A DNA stretch of 16,016 bases from Deltaproteobacteria bacterium RBG_13_61_14 (GCA_001797815.1 MGQK01000094.1:47614-63629), one strand, 5' to 3'; counted from the first letter of the stretch, positions 1 through 8,618 are shown. Notes: generated by a model not told the origin, from the letters alone. A program made the numbers and translations.

Positions 1-1683
1 CGATTTGCCGAGCTACTCAAGCCCGATCCCAACCGGGTGATCCTCAAGCAAACCGGATGCGTGGGGATGTGCTTCCGCGAGCCCTTGGTGGAGATCGTGG
101 AGGACGACCACCGCCGGACTCTCTATGGCGAGGTCACCTCGGATCGGGTGGACCGCATCGTGGAAGAACATCTGCGGGGGGGAAGGCTCATCCAGGAATG
201 GGTCGTTGAAGAGAAAGAGTTTCTGGCCAAACAAAAGCGGATCGTGCTTCGCAACTGCGGCGAAATTGACCCCTTCAGCCTGGAGGCCTATCAGGCCCGG
301 GATGGCTACCGCGCCTTGGAAAAGGTCCTCGCCTCCCTGACGCCGGAGCAGGTGATCGAGTGCATAGCGGAGTCGGGTTTGCGCGGACGGGGAGGGGCGG
401 GATTCCCGACCGGCACCAAATGGCGCCTGGCCCGGGCCGCGCCGGACCCGCACAAGTATGTGATTTGCAACGCGGACGAAGGAGACCCCGGCGCCTTTAT
501 GGACCGCAGCGTTCTGGAGGGAGACCCTCATTCGGTTCTGGAAGGGATGGCGATTGCCGGCTACGCCCTCGGCGCCGACCAGGGCTACATCTACGCGCGG
601 GCGGAATATCCCCAGGCGGTGCACCGGCTTCGTCACGCCATCGCCCGGGCGGAGGAAAAGAATCTCCTGGGCCGCAACATTTTCGGCCGGGGCTTTCATT
701 TTTCGATCCGACTGAAAGAAGGCGCGGGCGCGTTTGTCTGTGGCGAGGAAACCGCGCTGATTGCCTCGATTGAAGGGAAACGAGGGATGCCCCGGGTCCG
801 CCCGCCTTTTCCGGTCGAAGCCGGGCTCTGGGGACACCCGACCTGTATCAACAATGTCGAGACTCTGGCCAATGTTCCCTGGATCATTCTGAACGGCGCG
901 CCGGCCTTCGCTGCTTTCGGGACCGAGCGCTCCAAAGGAACGAAAGTGTTTGCCTTGGCCGGCAAGGTCAAGCGGGGCGGGCTGGTGGAAGTGCCCATGG
1001 GGATCACGCTCAACGAGGTCATCTACGGTATTGGCGGCGGAACGGTGTCGGGGGGGCCCTTTAAAGCGGTGCAGATGGGCGGGCCCTCGGGCGGATGCAT
1101 CCCGGCCAGCCTGGGCGACACCCCGATTGACTATGAGAATATCACGGCCACCGGCGCGATCATGGGTTCGGGCGGCATGGTGGTGATGGATCAGTCCACC
1201 TGCATGGTGGATGTCGCCCGCTTTTTCTTGAACTTTACCCAGAATGAGTCCTGCGGCAAATGCACCTTTTGTCGGATCGGCACCAAGCGGATGCTGGAAA
1301 TCCTCGAGCGGATTTGCATCGGCCAGGGCGAGGAAAAGGACTTGAAGATCCTGGCGGAGTTGGGCGAGCAGATCAAATCGTCCTCGCTTTGCGGCCTGGG
1401 CCAGACCGCTCCCAACCCGGTGCTGACCACCCTGCGCTATTTTTACCATGAGTATGAAGCCCATATCAAAGAGAAGAAATGTCCGGCCAAGGCCTGTCTG
1501 GCGCTGGTCGAGCTTTACATCAATCCCGAGCTCTGCTCCGGATGCGGGCTGTGCCTGAAAGCCTGTGATTCCGGGGCCATCAGCGGGGAGAAGAAAAAGC
1601 CCCATCAGATCGAGCCGAGCACTTGCGTGAAATGCGGCAAGTGTATCACGGTCTGCCGCCTGGGCGCGGTCGAGAAAAGGTAG
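1..1683 (+). CDS. NuoF/HydB-like NADH-binding flavoprotein (5' partial)
   Basis: Probably oxidises or reduces NAD(H) at an FMN and passes electrons through FeS clusters to the next subunit; no membrane segment is visible, so likely cytoplasmic. The frame is open from base 1, so the true start is upstream; an apparent GTG at 37 lies inside a domain. In order: the end of a thioredoxin-like [2Fe-2S] domain (GCVGMC, Cys codons at 58-60 and 70-72, the other Cys pair being off-window); the FMN/NADH fold with GRGGAGFPTG (about 385-414), NADEGDPGAF and CGEETALI; a SLBB-like section; a [4Fe-4S] site CGKCTFC plus SLCGLGQ (about 1250-1400); and a C-terminal two-cluster ferredoxin (CSGCGLCLKAC, CVKCGKCITVC). 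The C-terminal ferredoxin extension is typical of HydB-type subunits rather than plain complex I NuoF. The next gene starts 4 bp after the stop, so the two are co-transcribed. The family is sure; the partner and reaction are inferred. Confidence 0.93.
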   Translation, partial: RFAELLKPDPNRVILKQTGCVGMCFREPLVEIVEDDHRRTLYGEVTSDRVDRIVEEHLRGGRLIQEWVVEEKEFLAKQKRIVLRNCGEIDPFSLEAYQARDGYRALEKVLASLTPEQVIECIAESGLRGRGGAGFPTGTKWRLARAAPDPHKYVICNADEGDPGAFMDRSVLEGDPHSVLEGMAIAGYALGADQGYIYARAEYPQAVHRLRHAIARAEEKNLLGRNIFGRGFHFSIRLKEGAGAFVCGEETALIASIEGKRGMPRVRPPFPVEAGLWGHPTCINNVETLANVPWIILNGAPAFAAFGTERSKGTKVFALAGKVKRGGLVEVPMGITLNEVIYGIGGGTVSGGPFKAVQMGGPSGGCIPASLGDTPIDYENITATGAIMGSGGMVVMDQSTCMVDVARFFLNFTQNESCGKCTFCRIGTKRMLEILERICIGQGEEKDLKILAELGEQIKSSSLCGLGQTAPNPVLTTLRYFYHEYEAHIKEKKCPAKACLALVELYINPELCSGCGLCLKACDSGAISGEKKKPHQIEPSTCVKCGKCITVCRLGAVEKR

Positions 1684-1687
1684 AACC

Positions 1688-4600
1688 ATGTCTCCGATAC
1701 CCGATTCGGAACGGTTGCAACTGCCCGTGGAGTTGAAAATCAACGGGCAAAGCGTTCGGGCCCGTCCCGGACAGACCATTCTCGAGGTGGTCCGCGAGCA
1801 AGGGCTGGACGAGATCCCCACCCTTTGCTACGACCCCAAGCTCGAGTATTTCGGTTCCTGCTTTCTGTGTGTCGTGGAGGTGAAGGGAGCCCGGGGCTTG
1901 CTTCCCTCCTGCACCACCCGGATCCGGGACGGGATGGAAGTCTTCACCCGGAGTGAAAGGATTAGCAATACCCGCAAAACCGCGCTCGAACTCCTCCTCT
2001 CCGACCATTATGCCGACTGCACCTGTCCGGCCCAGCGCGCCTGCCCCGCGGGGGTGGACGTGCAGGGATATCTGGGCCTGGCCCGACTCGGACATTACGA
2101 AGAAGCTCTGCGCCTGATCAAGGAGCGCAATCCCCTGCCCATTGTCTGCGGCAGAGTTTGCGTGCGCAAGTGCGAAGTCAAGTGCCGGCGCAATGAGGTG
2201 GATAAGCCGGTGGGGATCAACTATGTCAAGCGCTATTGCGCGGAACATTCGCGGCATGAGGCGATTCGCCCCCAGGTGAAGCCGGCCACGGGCAAGCGGG
2301 TCGCGGTGGTGGGGGGAGGTCCGGCCGGATTAACCTGTGCCTATTATCTATCGCTCTTGGGCCATTCGGTCAAAATTTTTGAGGCCATGCCCCGGCTGGG
2401 CGGGATGCTCCGTTACGGGATTCCCGAATATCGCCTGCCCAAGGCCGAGTTAGACAAAGAAATAAGTGAAATTCTCCAATTGGGCACCGAGGTCGTCCTG
2501 GAAAAAAAGCTGGGACGGGATTTCACCGTGGAGAGCCTGCTGAAGCAGGATCAGTTTCAAGCGGTATTCCTGACTCCGGGCGCCCCGCTCAGCCAAAAAC
2601 TGGATATCCCGGGCGAGGAGGCCGAGGGAATCGAGTCGGCCTTGGATTTTCTCCGGGATACCGAGCTAGAGGGGCCGCGTCCCCTGCGGGGAAAGACCGT
2701 GGTGGTGGTCGGGGGAGGAAATGTCGCGGTAGATGGGGCGCGCACCGCCCTCCGCTGCGGCGCAAAACAGGTGACCATCCTCTACCGCCGCACCCGCAAA
2801 GAAATGCCCGCCCACCACGAAGAAGTGGACGCGGCCGAGCAGGAAGGGGTCCGGCTGGAGATGCTGGCGGCGCCGGTGGAAGTGATCGCCCAACAGGGGC
2901 GTTTGCAGGGATTGCGATGCATCAAGATGGAACTGGGCGAACCCGATGCCAGCGGCCGGCGGAGACCGGTGCCGATCCCCGGTTCCGAGTTTGACTATCC
3001 CTGTGATTATGTTCTCTCGGCGATCGGTCAAAAAACCGAACCCGAGGTGTTCGGCCAAGAGCCGGAAACGACCAGGCCCGCGATCAGCCGACGGGGCACG
3101 ATCCAGGTGGACGAGGCCACGATGGCCACCGATCGGCCCGGCGTGTTCGCGGGCGGGGATGCGGTGAGCGGGCCCGCCGTGGTGATTGACGCGATTGCGC
3201 AGGGTCATCGGGCGGCGGACGCGATCCACCAATATCTCTTGACCGGGGAGATGCAGGCCTCGCCACCTTCTTTTGTGAGTCAACGAGAGGTGTTTGGTCC
3301 GATCCCGGCCCGGATGTTCGAAGAGGTGGAGCGCATCCCCCGGCAGCAGATGCCCGAACGACTCCCCGAGGTCCGGAGGCAGGACTTTGCCGCGGTGGAG
3401 TTGGGTCTCTCGCAGGAGGAGATGGAAGCGGAAGCCAACCGCTGCCTGGAATGCGGGTGCAAAGCCCAGTTTGAATGCGCTCTCCGCCGATATGCCACCG
3501 AATACAACGTGGACATCATGAAAATGTCCGGGGCCGTGCGCCGGCATAAAGTGGACAACAGCCATCCCCTGATCACCCTCGATCCCAACAAGTGCATCCT
3601 CTGCGGCCGCTGCGTGCGGACTTGCGCGGACATTTTGAACCAGTCCATCCTGGGCTTTGTCAACCGGGGATTCACCAGCCAGATCAAGCCCGCCTTGGGA
3701 AAGCCCTTGGCGGAAACCCCTTGCATCAGCTGCGGGGCCTGTGTCGAAACGTGCCCGACCGGCGCCCTGACCGCCAAGCTGCCCTATGGCCGGCAGGGAC
3801 CCTGGAAAGTCAAGCAATTCCCCTCGGTGTGCGGCTTTTGCTCCGTGGGGTGCAGCCTGAGTCTCAATGTGGTGACCGAGGGGGTGCTGTGGGCCACGTC
3901 GCAGGTTAATTCCCATCCCGGCCAAGGGGACCTCTGCTGGAAAGGACGCTTCGGAACCGGTCTGATCCAGGGCCCGGACCGGCTTCGCCAACCCCTGGTC
4001 CGAAAAAACGGGCAACTAGAAGAAACGGATTGGGACGAGGCGATCAAGGAAGCCGCTCGGCTGCTGCAGGCGGTTCGAAATCAGAAAGGGCCTGAATCCG
4101 TGGCGGTTCTCGCGGCGCCTCGGATGACCTTGGAGGAATGTTATCTGGTGGGACGCCTCGCCCGCGCCGGCCTGGGCACTGACCAGATTGGCAGCTTCGG
4201 CCAAATTTACCGGGGAGGACCCCGGCAAGATCTGGACGACCTTGTGGGCGAAACGACTTCCACCTGCTCGCGCGAAGATATTGATTCCGCGGATGTGATC
4301 TGGCTAGTGGGGGCGGATCCATCCTCGACCCATCCGGTCATCAGCATGAGGGTGCGTCGGGCGGCCCGAAGGGGCGCCAAGATTATTGTAGTCAATTCCA
4401 GCAATATTGACTTGGTCCGCTCTTCCCGGCTTTGGCTCGATCCTCGCCGAGGGACGTTAGGGATTCTTCTGGCCGGCCTCCTGCGTCGGATCATGGATCG
4501 GAGCCTACTCAAACCGAGATTCTCGAACTTCCCGCCCGATGAGCTTCGAGATTTGAGGGATTCACTGGCGAACGCGACGCTGGACGAGGTGAGCCGGGTC

Positions 4601-5491
4601 TCAGGGGTAGAAGCCACCAAGATTGATGAAGTCGCGGATCTGCTGACGACCGCAAAAAAGGTGGTTGCGATCTACGATTTGCAGGACACCATGGAAAGCG
4701 CCCCGGACGACCTCACGGTCCTGACCCTGATCTTGATTCTCATGGATCATCTGACTCGGCTTGGCAGCGGGCTTCTCCTCTTGCAGCCTGACTGCAACTC
4801 CGAAGGAGCCCGGCTGGTGGGAATGAGAGAAGGCGTGCTCCCGGGTGGCTATCCTATTTCAAATCAGGCCATTCGCCGGAGAGTAGAGGAAGCCTGGAAG
4901 GTAAATCTGGAGGGGCTGGTGTCCTCCCACAAAGGAAACCTGTTCGGAAGACTGGTCTCCGGGGATATTGCCGCAGCGCTCGTGCTCCTGCAGGACCCCT
5001 TCCGGGACCCGGAAGCCAATCGCATCCTGGGCAAGCTGGAAGCGCTGGTGGTGGTAGATCTCTTCCTCACCGAAACCGCCAAAATGGCGCAAGTGGTGTT
5101 GCCGGCCGCCACCCTGGCCGAGAGCCAGGGAACCGTGGTCAGCTTTGATCGCCGGGTCCAAGCGGTAACCCAGGGGAACTCCCCACCCGGCGGGCTCACC
5201 ACCGCCGAAGTCATCGGCAAGCTCTCCCAGGCGCTGGGGCATCCCATTCCCTCCCTCGAAGCCGGAGAGATTCGGCGCGAGCTCTCGGTTTTAATCGGAA
5301 TATCGCCCGAACGGCTGGAAAAGGCTCGGGTCGAGTGGGAGAAATGGCCGGATTCCGGAAGCATTCCTCAACTTCAACGGCTCAAGAAAATTCAACTGGC
5401 CTCGCGGTTGTCGTCCCCCGTCCATTATCCGGATGCGACGATGGATAGCTATCTGCAACGGCGATTGACCCAAATGGGAATGTTCCGGTAG
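1688..5491 (+). CDS. GltD/NuoG-type fusion: NAD(P)H:FAD oxidoreductase with FeS and molybdopterin-like domains
   Basis: A 1267-aa multidomain redox protein. Residues 20-85 form a NuoG/FdhA-type [2Fe-2S] domain (C47, C58, C61, C75). Residues 95-190 are a Cys-rich Fer4_20-like domain as in GltD and NfnB (C111, C113, C119, C154, C158, C162, C166). Residues 203-520 are a GltD-like FAD/NAD(P)H domain with VAVVGGGPAG (205-214), a second dinucleotide motif VVVVGGGNVAVDG (338-350) and GVFAGGDAV (485-493). Residues 586-597 add CLECGCKAQFEC, and 636-689 form two [4Fe-4S] clusters (CILCGRCVRTC, CISCGACVETC). From about 710 comes a molybdopterin-oxidoreductase fold with a [4Fe-4S] site (C715, C718, C722, C750). 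By motif alignment Y841 (TAC 4208-4210) sits where formate dehydrogenase has Cys/Sec. The chain ends about 110 residues after the FDRRVQ motif, so the usual C-terminal cofactor-binding domain is absent. The ATG follows AAAAGG at 1676-1681. Formate dehydrogenase activity is unlikely; a NuoG-like electron-wiring role with a second NAD(P)H site is inferred. Confidence 0.9.
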   Translation: MSPIPDSERLQLPVELKINGQSVRARPGQTILEVVREQGLDEIPTLCYDPKLEYFGSCFLCVVEVKGARGLLPSCTTRIRDGMEVFTRSERISNTRKTALELLLSDHYADCTCPAQRACPAGVDVQGYLGLARLGHYEEALRLIKERNPLPIVCGRVCVRKCEVKCRRNEVDKPVGINYVKRYCAEHSRHEAIRPQVKPATGKRVAVVGGGPAGLTCAYYLSLLGHSVKIFEAMPRLGGMLRYGIPEYRLPKAELDKEISEILQLGTEVVLEKKLGRDFTVESLLKQDQFQAVFLTPGAPLSQKLDIPGEEAEGIESALDFLRDTELEGPRPLRGKTVVVVGGGNVAVDGARTALRCGAKQVTILYRRTRKEMPAHHEEVDAAEQEGVRLEMLAAPVEVIAQQGRLQGLRCIKMELGEPDASGRRRPVPIPGSEFDYPCDYVLSAIGQKTEPEVFGQEPETTRPAISRRGTIQVDEATMATDRPGVFAGGDAVSGPAVVIDAIAQGHRAADAIHQYLLTGEMQASPPSFVSQREVFGPIPARMFEEVERIPRQQMPERLPEVRRQDFAAVELGLSQEEMEAEANRCLECGCKAQFECALRRYATEYNVDIMKMSGAVRRHKVDNSHPLITLDPNKCILCGRCVRTCADILNQSILGFVNRGFTSQIKPALGKPLAETPCISCGACVETCPTGALTAKLPYGRQGPWKVKQFPSVCGFCSVGCSLSLNVVTEGVLWATSQVNSHPGQGDLCWKGRFGTGLIQGPDRLRQPLVRKNGQLEETDWDEAIKEAARLLQAVRNQKGPESVAVLAAPRMTLEECYLVGRLARAGLGTDQIGSFGQIYRGGPRQDLDDLVGETTSTCSREDIDSADVIWLVGADPSSTHPVISMRVRRAARRGAKIIVVNSSNIDLVRSSRLWLDPRRGTLGILLAGLLRRIMDRSLLKPRFSNFPPDELRDLRDSLANATLDEVSRVSGVEATKIDEVADLLTTAKKVVAIYDLQDTMESAPDDLTVLTLILILMDHLTRLGSGLLLLQPDCNSEGARLVGMREGVLPGGYPISNQAIRRRVEEAWKVNLEGLVSSHKGNLFGRLVSGDIAAALVLLQDPFRDPEANRILGKLEALVVVDLFLTETAKMAQVVLPAATLAESQGTVVSFDRRVQAVTQGNSPPGGLTTAEVIGKLSQALGHPIPSLEAGEIRRELSVLIGISPERLEKARVEWEKWPDSGSIPQLQRLKKIQLASRLSSPVHYPDATMDSYLQRRLTQMGMFR

Positions 5492-5598: not shown

Positions 5599-5722
5599 TG
5601 AAACCCGCAAGCCTTGAGAGGCGTCCCCCATTCCAGGGAGAGGTGAGGAAGCGCTTAAAAAAATCTGCGCGACGGGCTGATTGAAGTCAGGGAGGAACTC
5701 TTTTCAGGTTGGGTTGATCACC

Positions 5723-5731
5723 AGGAAGGAG
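5723..5731 (+). promoter_or_regulatory. Ribosome binding site fixing a TTG start
   Basis: AGGAAGGAG is followed by a 9-nt spacer and TTG at 5741. The longer in-frame reading from the TTG at 5681 has no comparable purine-rich site upstream, so translation most likely starts at 5741, removing 20 residues from the longest reading frame. Confidence 0.7.
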
Positions 5732-5740
5732 CAATCAAAG

Positions 5741-7225
5741 TTGTATATCTCCTCCTTCAGGGAAGAAGAGCTTCGGGTCCGAATCATTTGGTTTATCCGG
5801 CTACGCTGGCTCTTTTTGCTGGGATTGTTTTCCACGGTTCTGATTGCCACCCAGATTTTCCGGGTGGTGCTGCCGTTAAAGATAATCCTGGCGATCGGAG
5901 GGGCTATCTTTGCCTATAATCTGGCGCTTCATCTTTACCATCACTATACCAAGGACTCGGCCGAGAAAAATTTCCGGCAAATCCGGACGGAAGCCAATCT
6001 CCAGATTATTTTGGATCTGTTCAGTCTGACTTTGCTGATCCATTACTCGGGCGGTTTGGAAAACCCTTTTATCATGATATATCTGCTCCATGCGATTATC
6101 GCCAGCATCCTTCTCTCCCGCGCCGAGGTCTGGATTCTGGCCCTGGTCACTTTTTCTTGCTGCCTGCTTCTGATTATCCTGGAATACTTTGGAGTGATTC
6201 ATCATTATCATCTCGCCAATTTTTTTCCCAAAGATATTCACCGCGATTTGGTTTATGTCACCGGCGTCATCTTAACTGTCCTCGTTTCCCTCTTCGCCAC
6301 CATCTATATCAGCTCGACCATTGTCCAGGGGCTTTGGGTCCGGGAAGCCAAACTTTTTCTCGCGCAAAAATTGCTCCAGAAACAATCGGAAGAATTGCAG
6401 CAAACGAACCTGGTGAAGCAAAAGCAACTCGTGCAGGCGGAAAAGCTGGCTTCCCTGGGTCAATTGGTTTCCGGCTGCGCCCACGAGATCAACAACCCGA
6501 TCCAATTTATTCTGGGGAATATGCGGATTCTCAAGGAATCCTTTGAAGACCTTTTCCCCCTGCTGGAGCGCGAGACCCGGAACCGTCCGGATTTGACCAT
6601 CGCGCGACTGAGTCATGAGATGTTTGTGAAACACATCCCGATTCTCCTCGGCGATATGACCACCGGAGCCGAACGGATCCGGGATATAATTCTCGATTTG
6701 AAAACCTTCGCCCGGCTGGATGAAGGCCGGCTGGATGAGGAAGTCGACCTCAATGAAGTCGCGCAGATTTGTGAGCGGCTCGTCCACAATAAAATTAAAC
6801 GTTATCGGGTGGAGGAAAAACTTGCCCCGCAGCTGCCGAAAGTTAGGGGCAGCCGGAACAAACTGGAGCAGGTGGTCATGGCCTCCCTGATCAATGCGGC
6901 CGAGGCCCTGGGTAATCTTCGCAACGGCACGATTCAAATTGCCACCCGCATTGAAGCCGAGGCCAAGAGCGTCAGCCTTTCGATTTCCGACAATGGGCCG
7001 GGAATGACCGAGGAGGTCAAGAGCAGGATCTTCGACCCTTTCTTCACCACCAAACAGCGCACCGGCGGCACGGGCCTGGGCTTGTCCATCAGCCATGGAA
7101 TCATCAAGGAGCACGGAGGATATATTGAGGTCCGGAGCCGGATCGGCAAAGGCGCCACCTTCATCTTCCATTTGCCCGTGAGTGGTTGCAAAGGAGCAGA
7201 GGATGAACCGAATCCTGGTGATTGA
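5741..7225 (+). CDS. Six-TM sensor histidine kinase with RegB-like GGxxNPF motif
   Basis: A membrane sensor kinase of 494 aa (514 if the upstream TTG at 5681 is used). Numbered from the TTG at 5741, six hydrophobic segments lie near 20-40, 42-66, 85-105, 109-126, 129-153 and 172-195. Between TM3 and TM4 sits GGLENPF (104-110), matching the GGxxNPF motif implicated in quinone binding in RegB/PrrB redox sensors. A Gln/Lys/Glu-rich coiled-coil linker (about 205-240) leads to the H-box SGCAHEINNP with phospho-acceptor H248, then the N-box (LINAAEAL, N385), G1 (DNGPGM), F-box (FDPFFTTK) and G2 (GTGLGL, 443-448). No PAS or other sensor domain is present, so the membrane domain itself must sense. 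The 3' end overlaps the response regulator by 23 bp, implying translational coupling and a cognate pair. Sensing of quinone or redox state is inferred from the motif. Confidence 0.92.
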   Translation: MYISSFREEELRVRIIWFIRLRWLFLLGLFSTVLIATQIFRVVLPLKIILAIGGAIFAYNLALHLYHHYTKDSAEKNFRQIRTEANLQIILDLFSLTLLIHYSGGLENPFIMIYLLHAIIASILLSRAEVWILALVTFSCCLLLIILEYFGVIHHYHLANFFPKDIHRDLVYVTGVILTVLVSLFATIYISSTIVQGLWVREAKLFLAQKLLQKQSEELQQTNLVKQKQLVQAEKLASLGQLVSGCAHEINNPIQFILGNMRILKESFEDLFPLLERETRNRPDLTIARLSHEMFVKHIPILLGDMTTGAERIRDIILDLKTFARLDEGRLDEEVDLNEVAQICERLVHNKIKRYRVEEKLAPQLPKVRGSRNKLEQVVMASLINAAEALGNLRNGTIQIATRIEAEAKSVSLSISDNGPGMTEEVKSRIFDPFFTTKQRTGGTGLGLSISHGIIKEHGGYIEVRSRIGKGATFIFHLPVSGCKGAEDEPNPGD

Positions 7226-8618
7226 TGACGATCAAGCGGTCCTCAACTATCTTTTGGTCTCCCTCACCCAGGCGAATCGGTTTGAAGTCGAGGCGTTGAG
7301 CGATAGCACCCAAGCTTTGGCCCTCATTGCTTCGGGGCAATTCGATCTGATCCTCCTCGATATGGACATGCCGGAAACCAGCGGCTGGGAAATCCTCCAA
7401 TCCGTCCGCCAAAATCATCCGGAAATCGAAGTGGTCATCCTCACCGGAGTCGAGGATGTGTCGCTGGCGGTGGAATCCATGAAAATGGGCGCCTACGATT
7501 ATCTCTGCAAACCCGTGGATAACAACCGCCTGATTCTCACCCTGGAACGGGCCTTGGAGCGGTCCCAATTGCGCGGGGAAATCTCGCAATTGCGGGATCA
7601 GGTAAAGCTGGAAGGATTGCGGCACAAAGAGACTTTTAAGAACATTCTTACTCAAAATAAGAATTTTCTCCGGGTGCTCCGGAAGGTGGAGCAGATTGCG
7701 GAAAGCGAAAACAATGTGTTGATCTGGGGAGAAAGCGGCACCGGCAAGGAACTGGTCGCGAGAGCCATTCACCAGATCAGCCGACGTCGCGATAAGAACT
7801 TTATTGCGGTGAATGCCGGGGTTTTTGCCTCGGAACTTTTTGCTTCCGAGTTCTTCGGACACGAGAAAGGGGCCTTTACCGGAGCGGTGAGCACCAAGCC
7901 GGGCTTCTTTGAGGAGGCGAACGGCGGGAGCTTGTTCTTGGATGAGATCGGAGAACTCGAACTCCCGATTCAGGCAAAATTGTTGCGGGTGCTTCAAGAA
8001 GGAGAATACTTTCGACTTGGCTCCACCGAGCGGCGGGGCGCGGATGTCCGAATTATCGCTTCCACCAACAAAGATCTGGCCGCGGAAATCGAGAAGGGAA
8101 GATTCCGCCGGGATTTATATTACCGCCTGAACATCAGCTCGATTTTTCTTCCACCGCTGCGGGAGCGAAAAGGCGATGTGGAATTGCTGGCCTATTACTT
8201 TTTGGAAAGACGCGCCAAGCTCAATAGTAAAAAAATCGAGTTCATTTCCGAGGAAGTGCTGAGTGTGTTGGAGATGTATGACTATCCGGGCAACATCCGC
8301 GAATTGGAAAACATCCTGGCCGGAGCCGTGGTCCTGGAAAATAGCAACTCTTTGTCTCGGCGTTCGTTGCCCCCCTATTTGCTGAAAGCCATTGGGCCTC
8401 CCCGCGTCGTCCCCGTCCCCTCCGAGGTTCGCAAAACCCTGGCCAAACTTGAAGCGGACCACATCCAGCGCGTCCTCGAATACACCAGGGGAAACCGAAC
8501 CGCGGCCGCGGAGATTCTGGGCATTTCCAGAGTAGGACTTCTCAACAAAATGAAAAATTATGGAATTGAAATAGAACCGCAACCCCGGCGGGGCGGTCAA
8601 CGCCGGCCTGGTAACTAG
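7203..8618 (+). CDS. NtrC-family sigma-54 response regulator
   Basis: A 471-aa transcriptional activator that should be phosphorylated by the overlapping kinase and drive sigma-54 RNA polymerase. The start is the ATG at 7203, preceded by AAGGAG (7191-7196) with a 6-nt spacer; an in-frame GTG at 7182 lacks this. The receiver domain has acidic residues D8-D10, phospho-acceptor D53 (LLDMDMP), T81 and K103 (CKP). The AAA+ domain has Walker A GESGTGKE (176-183), the sigma-54-contacting loop GAFTGA (223-228), Walker B LFLDE (244-248) and the FRRDLYYRLN arginine-finger region (301-310). A Fis-type helix-turn-helix lies at about 430-452 (NRTAAAEILGISRVGL). All catalytic motifs are intact. I saw no convincing -24/-12 site in the window, so its targets are probably elsewhere. 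Confidence 0.95.
   Translation: MNRILVIDDDQAVLNYLLVSLTQANRFEVEALSDSTQALALIASGQFDLILLDMDMPETSGWEILQSVRQNHPEIEVVILTGVEDVSLAVESMKMGAYDYLCKPVDNNRLILTLERALERSQLRGEISQLRDQVKLEGLRHKETFKNILTQNKNFLRVLRKVEQIAESENNVLIWGESGTGKELVARAIHQISRRRDKNFIAVNAGVFASELFASEFFGHEKGAFTGAVSTKPGFFEEANGGSLFLDEIGELELPIQAKLLRVLQEGEYFRLGSTERRGADVRIIASTNKDLAAEIEKGRFRRDLYYRLNISSIFLPPLRERKGDVELLAYYFLERRAKLNSKKIEFISEEVLSVLEMYDYPGNIRELENILAGAVVLENSNSLSRRSLPPYLLKAIGPPRVVPVPSEVRKTLAKLEADHIQRVLEYTRGNRTAAAEILGISRVGLLNKMKNYGIEIEPQPRRGGQRRPGN

Follow-up and report, generated by a model that had tools for sequence, protein, structure and literature searches.

The 16,016-nucleotide stretch analyzed here (hereafter the window; C94:47614-63629 of G000, the draft genome of Deltaproteobacteria bacterium RBG_13_61_14, 4.7 Mb in 132 contigs and 95% complete) very probably contains the 3′ portion of an operon encoding a soluble electron-bifurcating transhydrogenase of the Stn (Nfn-Bfu) type with three subunits. 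Two frames, at 1–1683 (560 amino acids, open 5′ at the window edge) and 1688–5491 (1267 amino acids), are separated by 4 bp. Both the frames and their Pfam domains agree with the initial annotation, which had described a HydB-type gene followed at that distance by a GltD/NuoG fusion. That annotation had, however, pictured a complex of two subunits, and the sequence 5′ of base 1 adds a third, a NuoE/HydC homologue of 175 amino acids encoded by the adjacent gene (window −604 to −77, same direction as the NuoF gene; PF01257, E = 2.2e-49), and the encoded NuoE-like (BfuC) protein has its [2Fe-2S] ligands. The gene order is receiver/AsnC-domain gene, NuoE/HydC, NuoF/HydB, GltD/NuoG fusion, histidine kinase, and NtrC-type regulator, and the order nuoE–nuoF–gltD/nuoG is also kept in metagenome-assembled genomes (MAGs) of Acidobacteriota and Ignavibacteriota. 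Neither a HydA nor an FdhA gene was found near the operon, upstream stretch included, and a role as a hydrogenase accessory pair was rejected because both H-cluster proteins of this genome (two PF02906 matches) sit on other contigs (28 and 21).

The family assignment draws on similarity to solved complexes and on phylogeny. In phmmer searches against the PDB, Stn and Nfn-Bfu chains topped the ranking for all three proteins. The NuoF-type protein matched 9bov_B (825 bits), 8oh5_B, i.e., S. ovata StnB (817), 9n5u_B (778), NiFe-Bfu (756), and HydB (729), the fusion matched 9bov_A (851), 8oh5_C (StnC; 768), and 9n5u_A (644), and the NuoE-like protein was best matched by 9n5u_C, then by 8oh5_A and 9bov_C. 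For the two window proteins, best scores of this size (825 and 851 bits) lie far beyond chance. Relatives were collected through one scan of genome contigs seeded with peptides of the window protein, which yields close relatives rather than a census. In a maximum-likelihood tree of 21 NuoF-type proteins, the window protein fell within a 13-row clade together with S. ovata Stn, 9BOV, and the T. sibiricus Nfn-Bfu (support 98/97), its neighbors being a genome of the same order and two Acidobacteriota MAGs. Six paralogues from the same genome, NiFe-Bfu, and A. woodii HydB were all placed outside this clade; the paralogues on contigs 66 and 114 form long branches of unsure placement, which leaves the clade of the window protein unaffected. 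Taken together, sequence, architecture, gene order, and tree point to StnABC/Nfn-Bfu, in line with the earlier suggestion of an enzyme that links NADH, NADPH, and ferredoxin by bifurcation or in the manner of a transhydrogenase. Enzymes of this type, which split electron pairs and thereby keep NADH, NADPH, and ferredoxin in balance, are already known from anaerobes, having been characterized in 2020–2023, and the window provides a well-conserved new member in an uncultured lineage.

The StnB/HydB/BfuB-like subunit, of which the window covers the 3′ 560 codons (1–1683, + strand), is predicted to carry a flavin mononucleotide (FMN)/NADH site, the NuoF [4Fe-4S] cluster, and a C-terminal 2×[4Fe-4S] ferredoxin. 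Pfam recovered Complex1_51K (Nuo51 FMN-binding domain, aa 122–293, 364–879; PF01512, E = 1.2e-49), SLBB, NADH_4Fe-4S (aa 404–488, 1210–1464), and the C-terminal ferredoxin domain (1513–1668), a putative ferredoxin-reduction site by homology to StnB (PMC10482914), and NCBIfam likewise returned a NuoF/HydB-type protein. The NADH_4Fe-4S domain ends by the conserved B2-cluster His (EAHIKEKKCPAK), which alignments show to be common to StnB, NiFe-Bfu, and HydB; virtually all Bfu enzymes have this residue, whereas non-bifurcating homologues do not (PMC9304861). These features bear on the possibility that the complex is an Nso/Sfr-type NADPH oxidoreductase without bifurcation, serving sulfur, Fe(III), or another terminal acceptor instead of acting as a transhydrogenase. 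GltD/NuoG parts are indeed common to NsoABC and SfrAB (PMC7483475), and NfnAB would be available in this genome for ordinary transhydrogenation. However, the BfuBC core with its B2 His and C-terminal ferredoxin domain is lacking from non-bifurcating homologues (PMC9304861), and the tree groups the window NuoF with characterized bifurcating enzymes, so that we consider an Nso/Sfr-type function unlikely.

The second subunit of the presumed Stn-type complex is a StnC/Nfn-type BfuA-like protein (1688–5491, + strand) in which a GltD/NfnB module is inserted into a NuoG/FdhF-like protein. Pfam identified Fer2_4, Fer4_20 (GltD/DPD-type iron–sulfur, FeS), Pyr_redox_2, a NuoG-type dicluster, Molybdop_Fe4S4, and Molybdopterin, and NCBIfam agreed with this architecture. 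Along the protein, an N-terminal [2Fe-2S] domain (aa 13–89, 1724–1954; PF13510, E = 1.9e-18) is followed by the GltD-type FeS segment (aa 111–191, 2018–2260), which in the alignment displays C111-x-C113-x5-C119, an extra C154, and Lys181. Next come the Pyr_redox_2 module (2297–3205), with predicted sites for flavin adenine dinucleotide (FAD) and NADP(H) (GGGPAG; GGGNVAVDGA...YRRTRKEMPA), the post-insertion NuoG FeS part (3440–3772), with CxxCxCx5C and two four-Cys ferredoxin-type sets, and a degenerate FdhF/NuoG-like domain (3812–5191). Both dinucleotide-binding motifs are thus kept, which argues against a GltD module devoid of flavin. The fusion is 43.5% identical to S. ovata StnC over 858 residues (MAFFT; StnC residues 4–861 only), and its predicted fold is fixed by solved homologues at about 43% identity. 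StnC K170, a strictly conserved Lys close to the FAD-proximal cluster, and R239 correspond to K181 and R249 here. Besides these two residues, the GGGN...YRR segment for NADP(H) and the Cys of the NuoG clusters are conserved.

Two differences from StnC were found close to the GltD module. StnC C114 is replaced by Val125, and Val or Ile occupies this position in two homologues (PMC10482914). In addition, the HxxxCxxxCxxxCP motif conserved in StnC and NsoC becomes HxxxC-x-C-x5-CP before the GltD insertion in the window protein, two same-order relatives, and two Acidobacteriota MAGs, while the StnC spacing (HxxxC-x3-C-x3-CP) is kept in Ignavibacteriota, Aminicenantes, and G032. The variant-spacing members present in the alignment (window, L022, L023, and L024) also have the extra Cys at 154. 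The changed Cys spacing looks like a ligand exchange and was treated as variation within the family.

The fusion's C-terminal half raises the question of whether the protein could instead be a formate dehydrogenase (FDH), or another molybdopterin enzyme, with a GltD diaphorase, such as an NADPH-linked FDH. That half does match FdhF structures and the FDH alpha model TIGR01591, yet its 308 bits fall far under the equivalog cut-off of 666, and no C-terminal molybdopterin dinucleotide-binding domain was detected in the fusion by Pfam. The degenerate domain keeps the [4Fe-4S] Cys but has Tyr-Arg (GQIYRGG) in place of the catalytic Cys/selenocysteine (Sec)-His, the "LCH" of the FdhF active site aligning to "IYR", and no relative in the StnC-like alignment has Cys/Sec-His at this position. 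The homologous S. ovata Stn showed no formate:viologen activity (PMC7483475); its StnC is described as fusing GltD and NuoG, with an FdhF-like part that is catalytically inactive (PMC10482914). The genome moreover encodes a distinct FDH on contig 16, with "ARLUHSS" and an in-frame TGA read as Sec. FDH activity of the fusion was therefore rejected in view of the active-site residues, which contrast with those of this Sec-FDH, and the NADPH-linked FDH reading is exceedingly improbable. The initial annotation's expectation of neither hydrogenase nor FDH catalysis thus appears sound, with no HydA or FdhA gene alongside the operon and the FDH active site lost. As a separate observation, the contig 16 locus (L062:3863-8906) comprises a HydB-type gene followed by the FDH alpha gene with the active-site in-frame TGA, probably a Bfu-type selenocysteine FDH.

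By homology to StnABC, studied by mutation and structure (PMC10482914), NADPH would be oxidized at the FAD of the GltD module, and single electrons would travel along the NuoG-like FeS chain until they reach the HydB-like subunit and its FMN. There, the FMN would split electrons between NAD+ and, via the C-terminal ferredoxin domain, ferredoxin, with the NuoE-like [2Fe-2S] cluster acting as a movable gate at the split and the FdhF-like C-terminal domain being structural and non-catalytic. The physiological direction may be the opposite one, from NADH and reduced ferredoxin to NADPH; both activity and direction are inferred from homology. The initial annotation had instead emphasized an NfnB-like bifurcating FAD, and the mechanism closest to its wording is one in which the GltD FAD bifurcates while the HydB-like FMN merely collects electrons. 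In its favor are the homology of the GltD module to NfnB and the retention of the Arg that corresponds to StnC R239. In the solved Stn complex, however, this Arg is not bonded to FAD N5, the GltD FAD is a non-bifurcating NADPH site, and bifurcation is assigned to the HydB-like FMN; deletion of the StnA cluster abolishes coupled reactions while NADPH:viologen activity stays (PMC10482914). Since the operon also lacks an NfnA-like partner, we regard this mechanism as very improbable.

Several points nevertheless weigh against a straightforward Stn-type assignment. With Val at the C114 position and a rearrangement in one FeS-ligand segment, the protein may not match StnC in its cluster content or potentials. 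The N-terminal segment of the NuoF-type protein is only partly readable: the ATG lies ~65 bases 5′ of base 1, before a run of 11 N located directly 5′ of base 1 inside the gene. For the BfuB N-terminal [2Fe-2S] (B5) ligands, a C-x3-C pair is seen (TGCVGMC) and the first pair lies by the N run; the S. ovata StnABC structure shows only clusters B1–B4 (PMC10482914). For members from these phyla, activity is predicted from homology. Finally, the Stn-like complex need not be the main source of NADPH, because contig 11 of the window genome carries the gene pair for a canonical NfnAB (best PDB match of NfnA, 5jca_S, 312 bits). Across the 13 genomes with a Stn-like complex, NfnA was found at ≥50% identity in 8, and an NfnB gene adjoins it in 7 of these 8, the available stretch ending there in the remaining one; the absence of NfnA from the other 5 is not firm because several genomes are incomplete. 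Kremp et al. described Stn and Nfn as almost mutually exclusive in acetogens (PMC7483475).

Other loci of the same genome also drew attention. At L063:4400-7510 (C76:70399-73509), a HydB/NuoF-type flavoprotein and a GltD module are joined in a single frame of 1036 aa (Complex1_51K, NADH_4Fe-4S, Fer4_20, and Pyr_redox_2); a [2Fe-2S] frame comes next, close to the end of the contig. The fused frame is another arrangement of the same two flavin modules. At L065 (C77:3000-14000), a HydB-type gene and a gene for a short FeS protein are directly preceded by 2-oxoacid:ferredoxin oxidoreductase-like frames; judged by inspection of the sequence and by searches for paralogues, this looks like the predicted Por-Bfu type. 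At L066:3486-8140 (C114), a NuoE–NuoF fusion and a HoxU-like FeS protein are accompanied downstream by a frame that resembles hydrogenases, and the locus probably encodes an NAD-linked [NiFe]-hydrogenase. Beside 2-oxoacid oxidoreductase-like frames, L067:4832-8266 (C55) has a frame of 1144 aa that combines a GltD module with a C-terminal ferredoxin.

The operon appears to carry its own gene-regulation system. Downstream of the fusion, on the same strand, are a predicted membrane histidine kinase (5681–7225), whose N-terminal part weakly resembles the RegB/PrrB/ActS redox sensors (97.5 bits against a family cut-off of 350), and an NtrC-type sigma-54-dependent response regulator (7182–8618) with a receiver, an AAA+ domain with GAFTGA, and a Fis helix-turn-helix. 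Upstream of the window, L003:15974-16990 encodes a 339-aa protein with a receiver and one or two AsnC/Lrp-type ligand-binding domains, in which no DNA-binding domain was detected. The receiver/AsnC gene is the conserved first gene of Stn-like operons in several phyla. The entire order from receiver/AsnC gene to NtrC-type gene recurs in Ignavibacteriota (L025, L026, L028, and L030, contig-cut), despite only about 40% identity between their StnC-like proteins and that of the window, and the StnC–kinase–NtrC part is kept at L022, from the same-order genome G002. Across phyla, the kinases are alike in the C-terminal half only, and no kinase/NtrC pair adjoins the operon at L023, L024, L027, or G001. 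Eight genomes each had a single match for the full-length receiver/AsnC protein; G002, G066, and G067 have theirs on a contig other than that of the StnC-like gene, and G067 has, in addition, a cut second copy at the operon. On regulator linkage to Stn-type operons, nothing relevant was found in the literature collection that was searched.

Sequences upstream of the operon are consistent with sigma-54 control, and rpoN was found in the window genome. In a weighted scan for TGGCACGN4TTGCW over both strands of 18 kb, GGGCACGAGATATGCT, which lies 58 bases ahead of the receiver gene, shared the top score. When the 303-base stretch upstream was shuffled by mononucleotide, 0.16% of the shuffles scored as high, as did 0.8% of random 170-base stretches. 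As the scan was written after this site had been spotted by eye, the statistic is post hoc and other genomes provide a fairer test. In G002, where receiver gene and operon are on different contigs, TGGCACGGGATGTGCT lies 162 bases before the receiver gene and tops its 3-kb locus. TGGTATGTTCCTTGCA tops each 21-kb locus in L025 and L028, which count in effect as one observation because they are close relatives, and a weaker TGGCACCTTACTTGAT ranks fifth in L026. No comparable site was found upstream in G001, L023, L024, or L027, the same loci without an adjoining kinase/NtrC pair, although this comparison is a small sample. Among inverted repeats upstream of the operon, considered as candidate NtrC-type sites, only short or AT-rich pairs turned up, and these had no motif in common. 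Overall, a sigma-54 promoter before the receiver/AsnC gene probably drives the operon, with the downstream kinase/NtrC pair as the activator.

Beyond a routine match, the regulatory linkage, the coexistence with NfnAB, and the clade-specific Cys-ligand change are modest additions. A more speculative possibility, less likely than not, is that, in this lineage and in Ignavibacteriota, Stn may be a separately regulated redox valve beside NfnAB, switched at a sigma-54 promoter by its own kinase/NtrC pair with a receiver/AsnC-type first gene, and that the rearranged FeS relay near the GltD FAD in the window's clade may suit a role or direction unlike that of acetogen Stn. The range of Stn/Nfn-Bfu is extended to an uncultured lineage (three genomes in the collection) and to MAGs of Acidobacteriota, Ignavibacteriota, and Aminicenantes. 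Because Stn and NfnAB coexist there and Stn comes with linked regulators, why an organism uses one transhydrogenase or the other becomes testable.

Compared with known systems, the predicted complex is close to S. ovata StnABC (PDB 8OH5/8OH9; PMC7483475, PMC10482914), with which it has in common the gene order NuoE–NuoF–GltD/NuoG, GltD inside a NuoG-like protein, a dead FdhF-like domain keeping its cluster Cys, the K170 and R239 equivalents, and the HydB-type ferredoxin domain. Unlike StnABC, it has Val for C114, C-x-C-x5-C for C-x3-C-x3-C, and the extra Cys 154, its operon is flanked by regulators, NfnAB is in the genome, and its group is outside those surveyed there. The Nfn-Bfu of Thermococcus sibiricus (PDB 9N5U; PMC9304861) has the same three-subunit plan, and its NfnC chain is the best match of the window's NuoE-like protein; its BfuA, however, is ~200 residues shorter than that of S. 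ovata and lacks the A4 cluster Cys, whereas the window protein is full-length and S. ovata-like. By sequence match, the top-scoring solved homologue of both window proteins is PDB 9BOV/9BP5, named molybdopterin oxidoreductase / NADH dehydrogenase / 24 kDa subunit. The bifurcating [FeFe]-hydrogenase HydABC has the HydB and HydC subunits (BfuBC core) in common with the window operon, which has an NADPH module in place of the H-cluster subunit. NfnAB, for its part, would have the same overall reaction and the same GltD/NfnB-like FAD/NADPH module, but the Stn-type operon lacks NfnA and its HydBC-type FMN module would be the site of bifurcation.

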